The position numbers and the translations under genes were made by a program. DNA of 64,000 nt from Candidatus Zhuqueibacterota bacterium (lineage in GTDB: Bacteria > Zhuqueibacterota > Zhuqueibacteria > Zhuqueibacterales > Zhuqueibacteraceae), in the NCBI GenBank assembly GCA_022616415.1, contig JAKEEU010000213.1:1-64000 (forward strand), written 5' to 3'. The notes beneath the pieces were generated by a model that was not told where the DNA came from, searched no databases, and was given only the letters and a program-made list of their open reading frames with translations. Below are positions 6,720-57,292 of the stretch, piece after piece. Within the stretch, counting starts at the first letter, position 1, and every line of letters begins with the position of its first letter.

Positions 6720-6801
6720 CGCAAGGCGCAGAGGGCATAGAGCAGAGGGTATGGTATGTCTGCCCTCTGCCCTCTGCAAAACTAAGGTGCATAGATCAAC
6801 C

Positions 6802-8036: not shown

Positions 8037-8255
8037 TGTCCCGAAGGGACAAATGAAAATAGCCCACAGATTCATCTGTGGGAAAAGAGGAGACACCTCA
8101 ACCCTCAAGTCCCGTAGGGACGATTGAGAAAGAATGATTGTGATATTGCGAACATGCCGTTTTCATTCGTCCCTTCGGGACTGGATGGCGTGGTGATGAA
8201 TTATGCTCTCCCACCAATGAATTGGTGGGCTATTGTCACATGTCCCTTCGGGACA
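8037..8255. repeat. About 219-bp palindromic element with 30-nt imperfect terminal inverted repeats (copy 1)
   Basis: TGTCCCGAAGGGACAAATGAAAATAGCCCA ... TGGGCTATTGTCACATGTCCCTTCGGGACA; internal CCCACAGATtcATCTGTGGG and CCCACCAATgaATTGGTGGG hairpins; second copy at 52148-52369. Confidence 0.85.
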
Positions 8256-22452: not shown

Positions 22453-22461
22453 AAAGTAAAT

Positions 22462-22502
22462 CGTAAAACGTAATCCGTAAAACTTACGGATCACGTTTTA
22501 CG
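22462..22502. repeat. Intergenic hairpin of the CGTAAAACG/CGTTTTACG type
   Basis: CGTAAAACGTAATCCGTAA aac TTACGGATCACGTTTTACG (19-bp arms, one mismatch). Confidence 0.88.
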
Positions 22503-22534
22503 CATCACGCATAACGTTTTACGCCTTATTAACC

Positions 22535-30651: not shown

Positions 30652-32102
30652 AAATAAAGTTAGTAGTAGCCCCTTCAGGGGCCGGATGCCCGGCCAAGAG
30701 GGAATACCCAACCCGGACCAGCCGGAACCAAAAAGAAAAAGCGCACGCAAAGGCGCAGAGCAGACGCAAAGATTACGCAAAGGCAACGCCCGCAGGGCTT
30801 TTCTTTGCGATCCTTGGCGGCTTTGCGTCTTTGCGTGAAAAGCTGTGCTTTTTTTGCAAAGGTTTTACTTGTAATAGCCCAACAAGGGCGTTACTCCGTA
30901 CATTGCTGTCATTAATAATAATCGCCATTGTCATGGGTTGTGCCGGCAAAGCTAAAATGCAGACGCCTGACAAAGCGCCCGCAACGCCTTTTCCGGCTCA
31001 AAAGCCCCCGACGGGCGTAGCCTTGCCGGCAGCCGGAAATGGCATCATCGGCAACACGTTGAGCCAGTGGTTTGACCGCACGCCAACCATCAGCTCGGCA
31101 TCGGCGTGGCCAAGCGTTGCTGAAGACTGCGCCATGATCTACGACCCGGTAAAACATCGCATTGTACTCTTCGGCGGCAAGAACGATGATAATCAAAACG
31201 TGAATGAAGTTTGGGCGTTCGATCTTGCGCGGAACGTCTGGCAAAAAATCGCGGTGGAAGGCGAAAGCCCGCCGCCTTCTGAAGATCATGTTGGCATCTA
31301 TGATCCCATCGGTTGCCGGATGATCGTGCATGGCGGCGAAAATGGCCCGCCCTGGAACAACACGTGGTCGTTCGATTTGACGGCCCAGCGTTGGCGCGAT
31401 ATGACGGATTCAACGGCGCCGGCGCGGGAGGATCATACGGCCATTTTTGACAGCCGCGGCAAGCGCATGGTCATTTTTGGCGGACGCGATTATTATAACG
31501 ATAAACTTTATGAAATCTGGGCGCTCGATCTCGATCCCGGCTCGCCAAGGTTTGAGAAATGGCAAAATCTGACGGTGGAAAACCAGCGCCCTTCAGGGCG
31601 GTCCGATCACGTCGCTGTTTTCGACAGCCTGAAAAACCGCATGATCATTTACGGCGGGTGGGATAAGGAGAAAAAAGAATATCTGGATGATACCTGGGCA
31701 TTCTATTTTGCCCCGCTGGACAGCGGGGATACCATGGGATATTGGAAGAAGATCAAAGCCAAAAAATCGCACCCGCCCAAACGCCGCCATGCCGTCGGGG
31801 CTTATGATTCCGCCAGAAACTGGTTTATCATCTGCGGCGGTTTTGGCGACGAAGGGTATTTAAATGACGCATGGGCATTTGATCTCACCAACGAGGTGTG
31901 GATCAATATTACACCTGGCCCGCAACCGAGGATTGACCATCAAGCGATTTATGATCCCAAAAGCCGGCGCCTGATCCTTTATGGCGGCGACGCCAGGCTC
32001 AGAATCAAATTCCACGACTTTTGGGAATTGGAGATTCAGCCTGGCGTGTCTCTCGATCCGCTGAGGCCAGAAGCCGGACCCAAGATCAGCAAGAGACAGT
32101 AG
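30648..32102 (+). CDS. Kelch-repeat (galactose-oxidase-like propeller) lipoprotein; true start uncertain
   Basis: Repeated AIFDSRGKRMVIFGGRDYYNDKLYEIWALDL units; lipobox-like IIIAIVMGC; N-terminus disrupted by repeat. Confidence 0.82.
   Translation: MKIKLVVAPSGAGCPAKREYPTRTSRNQKEKAHAKAQSRRKDYAKATPAGLFFAILGGFASLREKLCFFCKGFTCNSPTRALLRTLLSLIIIAIVMGCAGKAKMQTPDKAPATPFPAQKPPTGVALPAAGNGIIGNTLSQWFDRTPTISSASAWPSVAEDCAMIYDPVKHRIVLFGGKNDDNQNVNEVWAFDLARNVWQKIAVEGESPPPSEDHVGIYDPIGCRMIVHGGENGPPWNNTWSFDLTAQRWRDMTDSTAPAREDHTAIFDSRGKRMVIFGGRDYYNDKLYEIWALDLDPGSPRFEKWQNLTVENQRPSGRSDHVAVFDSLKNRMIIYGGWDKEKKEYLDDTWAFYFAPLDSGDTMGYWKKIKAKKSHPPKRRHAVGAYDSARNWFIICGGFGDEGYLNDAWAFDLTNEVWINITPGPQPRIDHQAIYDPKSRRLILYGGDARLRIKFHDFWELEIQPGVSLDPLRPEAGPKISKRQ
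30735..30842. repeat. Inverted CGCAAAG-rich repeat without cargo
   Basis: AAAAGCGCACGCAAAGGCGCAGAGCAGACGCAAAGATTACGCAAAG ... CTTTGCGATCCTTGGCGGCTTTGCGTCTTTGCGTGAAA. Confidence 0.7.
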
Positions 32103-32150: not shown

Positions 32151-32403
32151 CCAACGGATAAAAGCGGCCAACGGATATAAAACAAAATGAATTGCAATGT
32201 TAATGCTTCAACTGAGGAGATTTTCATGAAGATATATTGACGTTTGCAAAAATAATAGGAATGTGTCACCCTGGAAGGGTCTTTTTAAGCATTGGCACGG
32301 ATGTTATAGTGAGAAATAATTTAATATCCTTATTAAACAATTATTTTGCCCTAATCATTTTGCCAGTGCTTGTTTTATCCGTTGGCCGCTGTTATCCGTT
32401 GGG
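32151..32403. mobile_element. 253-bp element bounded by 26-bp CCAACGGAT-pair terminal inverted repeats, no ORF
   Basis: CCAACGGATAAAAGCGGCCAACGGAT (32151-32176) and ATCCGTTGGCCGCTGTTATCCGTTGG (32378-32403). Confidence 0.75.
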
Positions 32404-40031: not shown

Positions 40032-40055
40032 GCCTATTACAGTGAAACGTGAAAC

Positions 40056-40101
40056 GTAATGCGTAAGAAGTACGCTTTACGCCTTACGTTTTACGCATTA
40101 C
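40056..40101. repeat. Intergenic inverted repeat of the CGTAAT/ATTACG family
   Basis: GTAATGCGTAA (40056-40066) and TTACGCATTAC (40091-40101); related in content to 22462-22502. Confidence 0.75.
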
Positions 40102-40118
40102 CCATTAGGTTTAACATT

Positions 40119-51189: not shown

Positions 51190-52173
51190 ATGTTCCGACA
51201 CCGAATACTTAATTCCGCAATGATTCTCTTAGGCATTTGGGTTTTGAATTTTTTGCTGGTTCATTTGAGCCCGGGTGACATAACCAACTTGTACTGGGGC
51301 CCCAAAACGGACCGGGAAAGCATGGAATCTTTGCGGCAACAAAGAGGAGTGGATCAACCGCTGTATCAACAATTCAAACAGTGGACAACCCGTTTCTTTC
51401 GCGGTAACTTGGGTTATTCCTGGGCCAAGCATCGTCCGGTGTCTGAAATTTTGAAAGAAGCCATTCCGGCCACCTTGCAGTTGACGATCCTGGCGCTGGC
51501 GGCGAATTTCATTCTCGGCTGTTTTTTCGGCGTTCTGGCGGGAATTTATTCCGGTCGTTTCCTGGGCCGATTTTTGAATTTTTCCAGTCTGGTCATCTAC
51601 TCCGTTCCCACGTTTTGGCTGGCCATGATCTTCATTTTGCTGTTCAGCGTGCAACTGCATTGGCTTCCCGCCTCGCAAATGCAATCGTTTCTCGCCGCCG
51701 AGGCGGGATTTTGGCAGGCACTCTGGGATCGAATTCAACATTTGATTTTGCCGGTGGCGGTATTGGGATTGACCGGAGCGGCGGCCGTCTCCCGCTACGT
51801 TCGCGGCAGCATCATTGAAGTTTTGCAGCAGGATTATATGCGCTTGGCGCAGGCGAAGGGCTTGCCAAAAAGAAAAGTGTATTTTCGCCATGCCCTTAAG
51901 AATGCCCTTCTGCCGGCAGTCACGCTGGCCGGGCTTTATCTGCCCTTTTTGTTGAGCGGCGCCTTTGTCATCGAAGTGATTTTTGCCTGGCCCGGTATGG
52001 GCCGGGTTGCTTACGAGGCGATATTTGCCAAAGATTATCCGGTTATTTTTGCGGTCAATTTCATCGCCGCGGCATTGGTGATTGCCGGCAACCTGCTGGC
52101 GGATTTGCTCTATCAATTCGTCGATCCAAGAATTCGCGTGCGTATTGTGTCCCGAAGGGACAACCGAGAATAG
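51190..52173 (+). CDS. Oligopeptide ABC transporter permease, OppB/DppB family
   Basis: LVHLSPGDITNLYWGPKTDRESMESLRQQRGVDQPLYQQF; EAIPATLQLTILALAANFILG; YMRLAQAKGLPKRKVYFRHALKNALLPAVT. Confidence 0.94.
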   Translation: MFRHRILNSAMILLGIWVLNFLLVHLSPGDITNLYWGPKTDRESMESLRQQRGVDQPLYQQFKQWTTRFFRGNLGYSWAKHRPVSEILKEAIPATLQLTILALAANFILGCFFGVLAGIYSGRFLGRFLNFSSLVIYSVPTFWLAMIFILLFSVQLHWLPASQMQSFLAAEAGFWQALWDRIQHLILPVAVLGLTGAAAVSRYVRGSIIEVLQQDYMRLAQAKGLPKRKVYFRHALKNALLPAVTLAGLYLPFLLSGAFVIEVIFAWPGMGRVAYEAIFAKDYPVIFAVNFIAAALVIAGNLLADLLYQFVDPRIRVRIVSRRDNRE

Positions 52174-52369
52174 CCCAGAAATTTATTTCTGGGAAAATAA
52201 GGCCAAATTCTCCCGTTAGTCCCGTAGGGACGATTGAGAAAATGCCAAATACGAAATCAAACATTCAAACCAATGATTTCAATCGTCCCTACGGGACTCG
52301 TGAGGTGAATTTTCGATTTGCATTCCACCAATGAATTGGTGGGCTATTTTCAATTGTCCCTACGGGACT
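52148..52369. repeat. About 222-bp palindromic element, copy 2 of the 8037-8255 family
   Basis: TGTCCCGAAGGGACAACCGAGAATAGCCCA ... TGGGCTATTTTCAATTGTCCCTACGGGACT; same internal order as copy 1. Confidence 0.85.
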
Positions 52370-53295: not shown

Positions 53296-53831
53296 CCAAC
53301 GGATAAAAGCGGCCAACGGATATTAATTTTAAACTGAAAGGGGTTTCAAATGGCACTGAAACACGAAGAGTTGACGAGGTTGATTATTGAGTGCATCTTT
53401 GAGGTGCATAACAATGTTGGTGTTGGGTTGGATGAAGAAACTTATCATCAATCATTGCTCGATTGCTTCTCCGACAAGGCGTTCCCGCAATTTCAAAACA
53501 AAGAAAACATCTTGTTCATCGCGGTATCGAGATCAGAAGATTCGAGCTTGATTTGCTGGTGTTTGAGAAAATCATTCTATTCAAGTAAAATATCATGGCA
53601 AACTCATCCATACTTGCACGGCAAAAGCCTTGTGCATCGCAGACCAAATTTTGTGTGGAGTGACTGCTATTCAAAATCAGATTACCTTATTTGATGTGGC
53701 TCGCATGAGAACGTATCTGCGACATTCAAATATACCAATCGGTTTGTTGGTAAACTTTGGCAAATCAAATCTGGAAATCAAGGCACTTCATCAGTAATTA
53801 AGGAAATCCGTTGGCCGCTTTTATCCGTTGG
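53296..53831. mobile_element. 536-bp element with perfect 26-bp CCAACGGAT-pair terminal inverted repeats carrying a decayed GxxExxY gene
   Basis: CCAACGGATAAAAGCGGCCAACGGAT (53296-53321) / ATCCGTTGGCCGCTTTTATCCGTTGG (53806-53831). Confidence 0.85.
53350..53797 (+). pseudogene. GxxExxY-family (PDDEXK_3-like) gene, frameshifted
   Basis: MALKHEELTRLIIECIFEVHNNVGVGLDEETYHQSLLDC; other frames give HRGIEIRRFELDLLVFEKIILFK* and YLRHSNIPIGLLVNFGKSNLEIKALHQ*. Confidence 0.75.
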
Positions 53832-53847
53832 TCATAAAAAAATTTAG

Positions 53848-54681
53848 ATGATCCCCTTGCTCAAAATCCAGGGCTTGAAGACCTATTTCTTCAAGCCCAA
53901 AGAAACCCTGCGCGCGGTTGACGGCATAGATTTGGAAATTCATCCGGGCGAAACGCTGGCGCTGGTGGGAGAGTCGGGATGCGGCAAAACCACGACCGCA
54001 CAATCTATCTTTCGCCTGGTTCCGCCGCCGGGACGAATCGTTGACGGCGCCATCGAATTTCGCGGCCAAAACCTATTGAGCTTGCCGGAAAAGCAAATGG
54101 CCTCGATTCGCGGCAAGGAGATGGGGCTTATCTTGCAAGATCCGTTGTCGGCGCTCAATCCGGTCATGCGCGTCGGCGGGCAAATTTCCGAAGTGATCCG
54201 CCATCATTTTGATTTGGACCGCAAGACGGCGAAACACCGCGCCTTGGAGCTGATGGAAAGAGTGCGATTGCCGAATGCCGGAATGATTTACAATTGTTAC
54301 CCGCATCAGCTCAGCAGCGGCCAACGGCAACGGATATTGATCGCCATCGCCCTGGCTTGCCGTCCGGCGCTCATTGTGGCCGATGAGCCAACCTCGGCGC
54401 TCGATGTATCGCTGCAAAGCCAAATTTTGGCTCTATTGAAGGAGCTCAAGAGGGATTTTCAACTCTCGCTGTTGTTGATCACGCACGATCTCGGCGTGGT
54501 GGCGCAAATAGCCGACCGCGTGGCGGTCATGTACGCCGGCAAAATTGTGGAGCAGTCTGCAACCGAGGCGCTCTTTGCCGCGCCGCGCCATCCTTATACG
54601 ATGGCATTGTTGGAGGCTATTCCACGCCTCGCTTTTGCAACAATAAAATTGAAAGATGATTTAGAAGGTGGGATAAAATAA
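53848..54681 (+). CDS. Oligopeptide ABC transporter ATPase, OppD/DppD family
   Basis: LVGESGCGKTTTAQSIFRLVPPPGRI, LSSGQRQRILIAIALACRPALIVADEPTSALDV. Confidence 0.95.
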   Translation: MIPLLKIQGLKTYFFKPKETLRAVDGIDLEIHPGETLALVGESGCGKTTTAQSIFRLVPPPGRIVDGAIEFRGQNLLSLPEKQMASIRGKEMGLILQDPLSALNPVMRVGGQISEVIRHHFDLDRKTAKHRALELMERVRLPNAGMIYNCYPHQLSSGQRQRILIAIALACRPALIVADEPTSALDVSLQSQILALLKELKRDFQLSLLLITHDLGVVAQIADRVAVMYAGKIVEQSATEALFAAPRHPYTMALLEAIPRLAFATIKLKDDLEGGIK

Positions 54682-54720
54682 CTTTAGGCTAGCTGTTTAC
54701 AAAAAAAAGCAAAAACTTTC

Positions 54721-55103
54721 ACGCAAAGGCGCAAAGACGCAAAGATATCGCAAAGAAAAGCTCAGCGAATGGTGGGTGGTGCGAACGGTGTTGTCAATTA
54801 AGAGCCAATCTCAAAGTAGAGAGGAGAAATTTCTATGAGCGAGAACGAATTATCTTTCGAAATTATTGGCGCGGCCATTGAAGTACATCGGATTGTGGGG
54901 CCTGGGCTGTTGGAATCTGGCTATGAAGAGTGTCTTTGTTATGAACTGAGACAAAAAGGGTTCCAGATTGACCAGCAGCTCTGGCTACCAATGAGATATA
55001 AAGAAGTGAAGGAAGGTATACATCGAATTGTGCTTGGATTGGAAGAATAGAGTTTTGTATTCTTGCTTTTCTTTGCGGTATCTTTGCGTCTGCGCCTTTG
55101 CGT
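54721..55103. mobile_element. Element bounded by inverted CGCAAAG-rich repeats, enclosing a truncated GxxExxY gene
   Basis: ACGCAAAGGCGCAAAGACGCAAAGATATCGCAAAGAAAAGC / GCTTTTCTTTGCGGTATCTTTGCGTCTGCGCCTTTGCGT. Confidence 0.75.
54835..55050 (+). pseudogene. GxxExxY-family gene, truncated (no nuclease core)
   Basis: IIGAAIEVHRIVGPGLLESGYEECLCYELRQKGFQIDQQLWLPMRYKEVKEGIHRIVLGLEE*; expected DLLV..ExK core absent. Confidence 0.7.
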
Positions 55104-55135
55104 GTTGCTTTGCTTTTTTCCTGTACGGAGAGATT

Positions 55136-56725
55136 ATGAAAAATTCTCACTGGCTCGGCTTGCTGGCTTTGTCGGCGATGTTCATTTTCGTGACGTGCCG
55201 GTCGCAAAATCAACATGCCCAAATTGGGGGAACCGTTTTCATTGGCGTGACCGGTGACTTTGACTCCTTCAACGAGCTCAATGCCGCCGACTCCGAGGCG
55301 CTGCAGGTGATTCAATACATGCTCTTCATGAGCCTGACGACGTTGGATGAGAATCTCCACTTTGCGCCGCAATTAGCTGAATCCTGGGAATTCTCGCCCG
55401 GGGACACCTTGCTGACTTATCATTTACGCAAAGACGTTCTTTGGACGGATGGCGCCCCCACCACCGCAGATGATGTGTTGTTCACCTATCAGCTCGCGAT
55501 CAACCCTAACGCCGCTTACCCGGCTGCCAGCCGTTTTGATCAAACCGGCAAAGCCGAAATTTTGGATGATTATACGATTCGCTTCCACTTCAAGCAGCCC
55601 TATCCTGACGCCTTGTTCGATACGCAGATGCCAATTTTGCCCAAGCACATTTTGGAGAAAATTCCGCCGGAGAAAATCGCCGACTGCGAATTCAATCGCC
55701 TGCCGGTTGGCAACGGCCCTTTCCAATTGGCGGAATGGCAGGCGAATCAGCGGCTTACTTTCGCAGCCAATGCTCGCCATGCTTTGGGCCGCCCACGCCT
55801 GGATCGGGTGGTGTTTCAAATCATTCCGGATGAGGCGGTGTTGCTCACCAATCTTATGACCGGCGCGATAGATATCGCTGCCGGATTGTCTCCTTTATCT
55901 TTCAAGCAGGTCGCGTCGCAGGCGAAATTACAGGCGCGGCGCTACCCCGGCCGCAATTTCGCCTTCATCGCCTGGAATCTCAAGCGGCCTTTGTTCACGC
56001 GCCGAGTCCGCCAGGCCTTGACGCACGCGATCAACAAGCAGGAAATCATCGACACGCTTTTGGAAGGATTTGCGCAACCCGCAGTCGGCCCGCTGTTGCC
56101 GTTCGTCTGGGCTTACGACTCGACGTTACAAGATTTTCCATTCGATCCTGAGATGGCCAATCGCCTCCTTGAAAAAGAGGGCTGGAAGGATTCGGATGGC
56201 GACGGTATTCTCAACCGGCAAGGCGAAAAATTCGAATTCACGCTTTGCACCAATGCCGACAATCAGCTCCGCAAGGACGTCGTCGTCATGGTGCAGGCGC
56301 AACTGAAAAAAATCGGTGTCGCCGTAAAAGTCGAGCTGCTGGAATGGAACCTGCTCTTGGAGCAGGTTTTCACGCGCAAGGATTTTGACGCTTTGATATC
56401 GGCGTGGGACGCGGATTTCACCGCCAATCCCGCGGCGCTGTGGCATTCCGGCGCCGTTGAGAACGGATATAATTTCGTCTCTTATCGCCATGCGCGGGTC
56501 GACGAACTTTTGGAAAAAGGGCGCGCGATCGTGGATCGCCGCATGGCTGAGCCGCTCTGGCATGAGTTTCAAAAGATCATCGTGGAAGACTGTCCCTACA
56601 CTTTTCTTTTTGTGCCGGAACGATTGGCGGCGGTCAATCAACGCGTGCAAGGGGTCAAAATGGACGTGCGCAGCCACCTGGCAAATATTCACGAGTGGTG
56701 GATTTCGTCACAGAAACGGGAGTAA
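55136..56725 (+). CDS. Extracellular peptide-binding lipoprotein (SBP family 5)
   Basis: LAESWEFSPGDTLLTYHLRKDVLWTDGAPTTADDVLFTYQLAINP; VRQALTHAINKQEIIDTL. Confidence 0.93.
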   Translation: MKNSHWLGLLALSAMFIFVTCRSQNQHAQIGGTVFIGVTGDFDSFNELNAADSEALQVIQYMLFMSLTTLDENLHFAPQLAESWEFSPGDTLLTYHLRKDVLWTDGAPTTADDVLFTYQLAINPNAAYPAASRFDQTGKAEILDDYTIRFHFKQPYPDALFDTQMPILPKHILEKIPPEKIADCEFNRLPVGNGPFQLAEWQANQRLTFAANARHALGRPRLDRVVFQIIPDEAVLLTNLMTGAIDIAAGLSPLSFKQVASQAKLQARRYPGRNFAFIAWNLKRPLFTRRVRQALTHAINKQEIIDTLLEGFAQPAVGPLLPFVWAYDSTLQDFPFDPEMANRLLEKEGWKDSDGDGILNRQGEKFEFTLCTNADNQLRKDVVVMVQAQLKKIGVAVKVELLEWNLLLEQVFTRKDFDALISAWDADFTANPAALWHSGAVENGYNFVSYRHARVDELLEKGRAIVDRRMAEPLWHEFQKIIVEDCPYTFLFVPERLAAVNQRVQGVKMDVRSHLANIHEWWISSQKRE

Positions 56726-56801
56726 ATATCTGGCGAAGCTTCGCCTCTTAGCCGAAAACCGAAGTCCCGCAAGCGGGACAGCTTTAAATTAAAAAAATTG
56801 C

Positions 56802-57292
56802 CCAACGGATTGAAAAACGACCAACGGATAGAAAACTACATTTAGAAATCCGTTGGTCGCCTGCGGCCGTAGGCTTCTTATCCGTTGGCTATGGCCTTTC
56901 TTAAATTTGAGTTTATTTTATGGCACTACGGCACGAAGAATTGACCTCGGTGATTCTAGCGAGCATCTTTGAAGTGCACAATGATGTTGGCGTTGGGCTC
57001 GATGAAGCGCTTTATCATCAATCCTTGCTCGATTGTTTTCTGCAAAATCATTATGTGCAGATCATCTCAGAATTAAAACTGTGGCAAAAAGATCTTGGCC
57101 TGTTGGTAAACTTTGGCCGGCTCAAAACAGAATTTGAAAGAATACCGTTTGACGAGAAAGAGAAGAAAGTCGTTGAAGTATTCAAACATTCCGCTCGGAT
57201 TGCTAGTAAATTTTGGCAAATCGAATCTCGAAATCAAAGCAATTCTTTGTAATTGAGAAAATTCATCCGTTGGTCGTTTTTCAATCCGTTGG
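56802..57292. mobile_element. 491-bp element with perfect 28-bp CCAACGGAT-pair terminal inverted repeats carrying a decayed GxxExxY gene
   Basis: CCAACGGATTGAAAAACGACCAACGGAT (56802-56829) / ATCCGTTGGTCGTTTTTCAATCCGTTGG (57265-57292); extra inverted copy at 56848-56888. Confidence 0.85.
56920..57252 (+). pseudogene. GxxExxY-family gene with rearranged/deleted core
   Basis: MALRHEELTSVILASIFEVHNDVGVGLDEALYHQSLLDCF then GLLVNFGRLKTEFER; other frame ends YSNIPLGLLVNFGKSNLEIKAILCN*. Confidence 0.7.

Follow-up and report, generated by a model that had tools for sequence, protein, structure and literature searches.

Three decayed elements in an opp operon

The window, the whole stretch of 64,000 nucleotides that was analysed, carries between 53296 and 53831 a short element (element 1) in which a broken gene stands between perfect 26-bp inverted ends, CCAACGGATAAAAGCGGCCAACGGAT, with 0 mismatches; the chance expectation of this inverted pair in the window is 0.00. 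The 26-mer is itself an internal direct repeat, CCAACGGAT-8-CCAACGGAT. Both the ends and a GxxExxY/PDDEXK_3 gene between them had been claimed in the preliminary description, and both are borne out, with frames of the gene matching the profiles TIGR04256 and PF13366 at E-values of 1.8e-6 and 9.4e-7 for the N-terminal piece and of 8.6e-7 and 8.1e-6 for the C-terminal piece. As lone fragments these pieces fall under the NCBIfam cut-off and over the Pfam cut-off, as expected for a broken gene. The frameshift noted earlier is present as well, and the gene additionally carries an internal deletion: domain 1 begins in frame, then come the frameshift, the deletion and the terminal part of domain 2, with about 120 residues in between missing relative to an intact relative (L056, 269 aa, two GxxExxY domains). 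Neither in the window copies nor in the intact relatives were frames other than GxxExxY found between the element ends.

The elements from 53296 to 57292 sit between ABC-transporter genes, two more GxxExxY remnants with different inverted ends lying in the two gaps that follow in the same opp operon (Table 1). The arm spacer is identical within each CCAACGGAT element and differs between those beginning at 53296 and 56802. The left end of the second double element contains an inverted array and is therefore itself a hairpin. The gene-less element that shares the ends of element 1 is likely a non-autonomous derivative.

Table 1. Positions of elements and their parts in the window
Feature	Position	Strand	Remarks
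Left terminal arm of element 1, CCAACGGAT-AAAAGCGG-CCAACGGAT	53296..53321	+	Two units, 17-bp period
Decayed double GxxExxY (PDDEXK_3) gene, element 1	53350..53797	+	Profile matches; intact relatives L036, L056
Right terminal arm of element 1	53806..53831	-	Perfect inverse of left arm
Left array of single-domain GxxExxY element	54722..54755	+	Four CGCAAAG units (G-type word)
Single GxxExxY gene, C-terminal half missing	54835..55050	+	71 aa; TIGR04256 E 4.4e-16
Right CGCAAAG array of single-domain element (54722-55104)	55071..55104	-	
Left arm of second double-GxxExxY element, CCAACGGAT-TGAAAAACGA-CCAACGGAT	56802..56829	+	
Inverted array within left end of second double element	56848..56888	-	Nested small palindrome
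Second decayed double GxxExxY gene	56920..57256	+	Internal deletion unlike that of the 53350 gene
Right arm of second double element	57265..57292	-	28 bp, 100% complementary to 56802-56829
Gene-less element, arms at 32151 and 32377	32151..32402		Same 26-bp ends as element 1 (one mismatch)
Gene-less hairpin, CGCAAAG-type units	30746..30835		Four units per arm

Other palindromic features were observed in the window and at other loci. Hairpins without a gene, whose period-7-like arms are reminiscent of the S23 element ends treated below, occur at 6728-6777, 22457-22528 and 40042-40115, and the spacer between two CCAACGGAT units holds small palindromes (CCTACGGCCGTAGG-like, TCCCGCC..GGCGGGA) at L001, L008, L011 and window 56848-56888. 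Acido-Lenti-1 (Rfam RF01687) occurs in inverted pairs that face outward, some 170 bp from each other, at 8037-8255 and 52148-52369, with 24 matches and at least five inverted pairs in the genome (contig C439 twice, C335, C311 and C152); the pair at 52148 is missing from the syntenic 12-bp gap of a congeneric genome, G002. This 'RNA' could represent the hairpin at the end of a further palindromic element. Separately, the ABC transporter ATPase gene at 53848-54681, beside the 54722 element, is without the C-terminal part of its G002 counterpart.

Copies in the host genome and intact relatives

The host genome, a metagenome assembly of 10.3 Mb with 8% contamination, belongs to candidate phylum KSB1. 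The genome-wide search for the 26-mer that had been proposed returned 99 copies at no more than 3 mismatches. Bipartite CCAACGGAT-x-CAACGGAT half-ends number 268 in this genome and 19 in G002, with none in most of the phylum, which is a lineage-specific burst. Those inspected mostly form gene-less hairpins, commonly 55-150 bp long with CCAACGGAT outermost, and many short gene-less copies share their ends with a gene-bearing copy, a feature typical of MITEs. Most of the GxxExxY loci in the genome lie within inverted repeats of varying sequence, and there are hybrid elements with two arm subtypes (L004).

Intact genes between such ends, which the preliminary description had suggested looking for, exist as double genes in the host genome (L036, L035) and in relatives (L056/L057), among them the KSB1 isolate KSB J3. 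With about 264-269 aa, their proteins contain two GxxExxY domains, of which the first can retain the D..ExK residues (L036, L035) and the second is without them, and the catalytic E is lost in some copies (ALK in L056/L057); this double-domain form appears to be a variant of the GxxExxY family. The same description had held that its reading would be refuted by GxxExxY genes lacking these ends elsewhere in the genome and by ends without the gene at most loci. Taken literally this is partly met, most CCAACGGAT ends being gene-less and most GxxExxY genes having other ends, a pattern that fits non-autonomous derivatives together with ends specific to each element.

Two isolated cases concern changes to the arms or the gene. 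At L042 (C103:46428-46754 of the host genome) the right arm is missing and the second GxxExxY domain runs in frame into the downstream gene, giving an open frame of 663 aa. At C85:19801-19881 of G035 about five units of CCAACGGATAGAAACAAC stand in tandem at 18 bp spacing, so an arm can expand.

Terminal arrays across the phylum and beyond

GxxExxY is present in 73 of 82 KSB1 genomes. The loci compared were chosen from the best matches and by hand, not randomly; at 42 of the 67 usable GxxExxY loci the inverted repeats exceed the 95th percentile of mismatched-flank controls. With single-domain proteins the repeated word is C[AG]CNNA[GT], occurring every 9-10 bp, pointing inward and typically present in three copies per arm, and with double-domain proteins the words resemble CAACGGAT and stand about 17-19 bp from one another (window; L035; L240 in Pontiella). 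The autocorrelation of the GxxExxY arms at a lag of 9-10 is 0.45 and 0.38, against 0.29. Converging arrays with at least two units on each side occur at 39/67 loci, compared with 0/67 shuffles, 0/40 S23 loci of the same phylum and 0/4000 random placements. Inverted ends composed of short tandem repeats are a feature of the foldback type. The motif came from a subset of the loci on which it was then counted; the controls are fair and the loci from other phyla are independent. Under this motif, two-sided arrays are absent at about 40% of the GxxExxY loci, which counts against a mobile-element reading.

A related pattern was seen at S23 (PF05635) genes outside rRNA (L104-L118, L189-L218), which are flanked by inverted repeats of 7-bp words; 24 of 32 such loci lie above the 95th percentile of controls. 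The autocorrelation of the S23 arms peaks at lags of 7 and 14 (0.61 and 0.63, against 0.31).

The protein and its covariation with the repeat word

By profile, motif and fold, the product of the elements is a member of the GxxExxY/PDDEXK_3 family. Although the window copies themselves are broken, E29, D68 and K80 are nearly invariant in 24 GxxExxY proteins, and the protein is modelled with a PDDEXK fold (pLDDT 92) whose nearest solved counterparts are Cas4, lambda-type exonuclease and Hjc. A sequence search of solved structures gave no match for GxxExxY. The conserved residues and the model suggest an active nuclease, and its action on the ends is inferred. Membership of a defence system was considered and rejected, there being only weak Cas4/PDC matches to the nuclease fold and no partner gene. 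Neither another recombinase gene nor a recognised transposase of the DDE, HUH, serine or tyrosine kind was seen inside the elements.

The words of the left and right arms agree within a locus at 0.902 (n=41), against 0.496 when shuffled (sd 0.039). On a quick tree of 72 proteins and 118 columns, the last letter of the word (G or T) changes only twice, compared with a shuffled mean of 16.8 and minimum of 12, and the branches flanking the G/T split have 98% SH-aLRT support; the fifth letter changes 11 times against 18.4. Host family, in contrast to the word, carries no signal on this tree (35 changes against 35.9 shuffled), and proteins therefore pass between host families with the word along. 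At seven loci from other phyla (Fusobacteriota, Bacteroidota, Spirochaetota, Gemmatimonadota and Alphaproteobacteria), where words were labelled before the proteins were placed, the neighbours in the tree predicted the last letter in 7/7 cases. Since the word changes in step with the nuclease, gene and ends appear to travel as one unit. The simplest explanation of this tracking is that the protein recognises the ends, and such binding is inferred.

Orientation and occurrence at syntenic sites

At 53 of 56 loci (longest-ORF rule) the GxxExxY gene is read in the same direction as the gene upstream of it, with both neighbours in sense at 45 and both antisense at 2. This bias could alternatively reflect a role at the RNA level, of the intervening-sequence type: the arms would form a stem in the operon transcript, looping out the gene, which would be processed, for example by RNase III, with the protein acting on RNA or being a mere passenger and the element persisting because the processed transcript spares host genes. 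Besides the bias, the predicted stem is strong (z -5.7), so this explanation remains possible; ends of the same kind, with a period of 7, also enclose the S23 genes. A stem, however, requires only that the arms be complementary; one word directly repeated 2-4 times at 9-10 bp is not needed for it, and neither is a word that follows the protein clade, and the orientation would result equally if a promoterless gene must be expressed. Spread is not explained at the RNA level alone, and we consider this account unlikely.

At syntenic sites the whole unit is either there or missing. In G002, of the same genus, G004, of the same family, and G035, of the same class, the syntenic opp operon is more compact and contains none of these elements. 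Likewise, an element lies between radA and the next gene in Bacteroides finegoldii, where the same pair is 13 bp apart in Parabacteroides distasonis, and between fabD and fabG in Sphingomonas parapaucimobilis, compared with a short gap in S. paeninsulae. All these comparisons are between species, and movement is not observed directly. In the nearest pair of genomes (G006/G007, about 94% identical), unrelated sequence replaces the element at one locus, so that no exact ends could be obtained from that pair, and at a second (L166) the element is present in both.

Target duplications, for which the preliminary description had proposed comparing insertion and empty sites, were looked for and not found in 32 short CCAACGGAT-family elements or in 39 gene-bearing elements with CRC words, the exact ends being inferred. 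There is therefore no signature of classical cut-and-paste transposition. Some IS families make no target-site duplication.

The lack of duplications would also be in keeping with maintenance instead of movement, in which the nuclease, comparable to a homing or recombination-promoting nuclease, would cut cruciforms or broken ends at the arrays and promote recombination locally or gene conversion, copies spreading by repair and not by transposition proper. The presence of the Holliday-junction resolvase Hjc and of Cas4 among the nearest folds is in its favour, as are the match between the two arms of one element and the hybrid arms of L004. The fold matches, however, are at superfamily level only (E 1e-3 to 0.1), and insertion sites differ in sequence, leaving no single homing target; we regard maintenance as improbable. 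That ordinary palindromic repeats or terminators merely lie near GxxExxY genes is hardly credible, for although most CCAACGGAT hairpins are gene-less and lie in AT-rich flanks like bidirectional terminators, the array controls, the covariation of word and protein and the correct predictions in other phyla already largely refute it.

A terminator role was rejected because gaps between convergent genes, the place expected of terminators, hold only 4 of 18 gene-less elements. The double protein is without a match in 50,697 phage records, and plasmids gave only a handful of records, so these genes appear to belong to neither phages nor plasmids.

Discussion

Our preferred explanation, which we hold to be likely though well short of certain, is that element 1 is a decayed copy from a widespread and apparently undescribed superfamily of mobile elements of foldback-like kind, in which the nuclease recognises the terminal array of its own element and which has gene-less derivatives. 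The earlier suggestion of a nuclease-fold product that acts in mobility or maintenance of its own element gains support from the recurrence of gene and ends as a unit, in the phylum and beyond, from the all-or-none occurrence of this unit at syntenic sites, and from a word that covaries with protein clade and not with host taxonomy; movement and nuclease action are inferences. An intact element measures about 0.5 kb with a single-domain protein and 0.95 kb with a double-domain one; a lone gene for a small PD-(D/E)XK nuclease is framed by inverted arrays at the two termini, and every arm has 2-4 copies of a short inward word. The protein is inferred to bind its own arrays specifically and to cut at the ends or at a cruciform formed by them, after which host repair or replication would move the element by a route of integration that is likewise inferred. 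It would settle in sense between the genes of an operon, to be expressed from the upstream promoter, and the short gene-less hairpins with the same ends would be non-autonomous derivatives multiplied in trans. To our knowledge, a PDDEXK nuclease alone has not been found to transpose DNA.

Several known systems share parts of this organization. Eukaryotic Foldback (FB) elements also build inverted ends from short tandem repeats, but the GxxExxY elements are bacterial, far smaller, and carry a gene for a PDDEXK nuclease, which covaries with the word of the repeats. Bacterial MITEs and REP/REPIN hairpins are gene-less, short, intergenic, palindromic and present in many copies; the gene-less hairpins described here are likewise short, intergenic, palindromic and numerous. 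They differ in that the apparent partner gene is GxxExxY, and not a DDE or TnpA-REP (tyrosine/HUH-type) transposase, and in the lack of target duplication. Terminal inverted repeats are shared with classical IS/TIR transposons, which differ in having a recognised transposase and target-site duplication. The GxxExxY family (TIGR04256 / PF13366) has been described only as a protein and annotated only by motif. We found no literature linking it to terminal arrays, in a search of partial coverage that does not exclude a description elsewhere.

S23 is the protein of the 23S rRNA intervening sequences, which RNase III excises and for which a mobile origin has been suspected (PMC4990558). Like these intervening sequences, with their S23 four-helix-bundle ORF, the GxxExxY element is small, with complementary ends and one small ORF; unlike them, it lies between protein genes and encodes a nuclease with no S23 ORF, and its array period is 9-10 (17-19 with double-domain proteins) against 7 in S23. 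We put forward only tentatively, as something conceivable and less than probable, that a single unrecognised class of mobile DNA in bacteria has the GxxExxY and the S23 elements as its two branches, each with one small protein that reads the word and period of its terminal arrays, entry in sense into operons and no need of a known transposase.

If true, this would explain many orphan repeats of the CACGAAG, CGCAAAG and CACGGAT type as well as the rRNA intervening sequences. The GxxExxY gene, found in short elements with repeat-word arrays in many phyla, probably marks an undescribed kind of mobile DNA. The data give this family a probable function and a specific code, open to testing, that connects protein clade with DNA word. 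They also provide one explanation for the short repeats and hairpins scattered through the genomes of bacteria, and a possible parent class of the 23S rRNA intervening sequences, long a puzzle. If the nuclease does move its own ends, it would constitute a very small mobile system based on PDDEXK alone.
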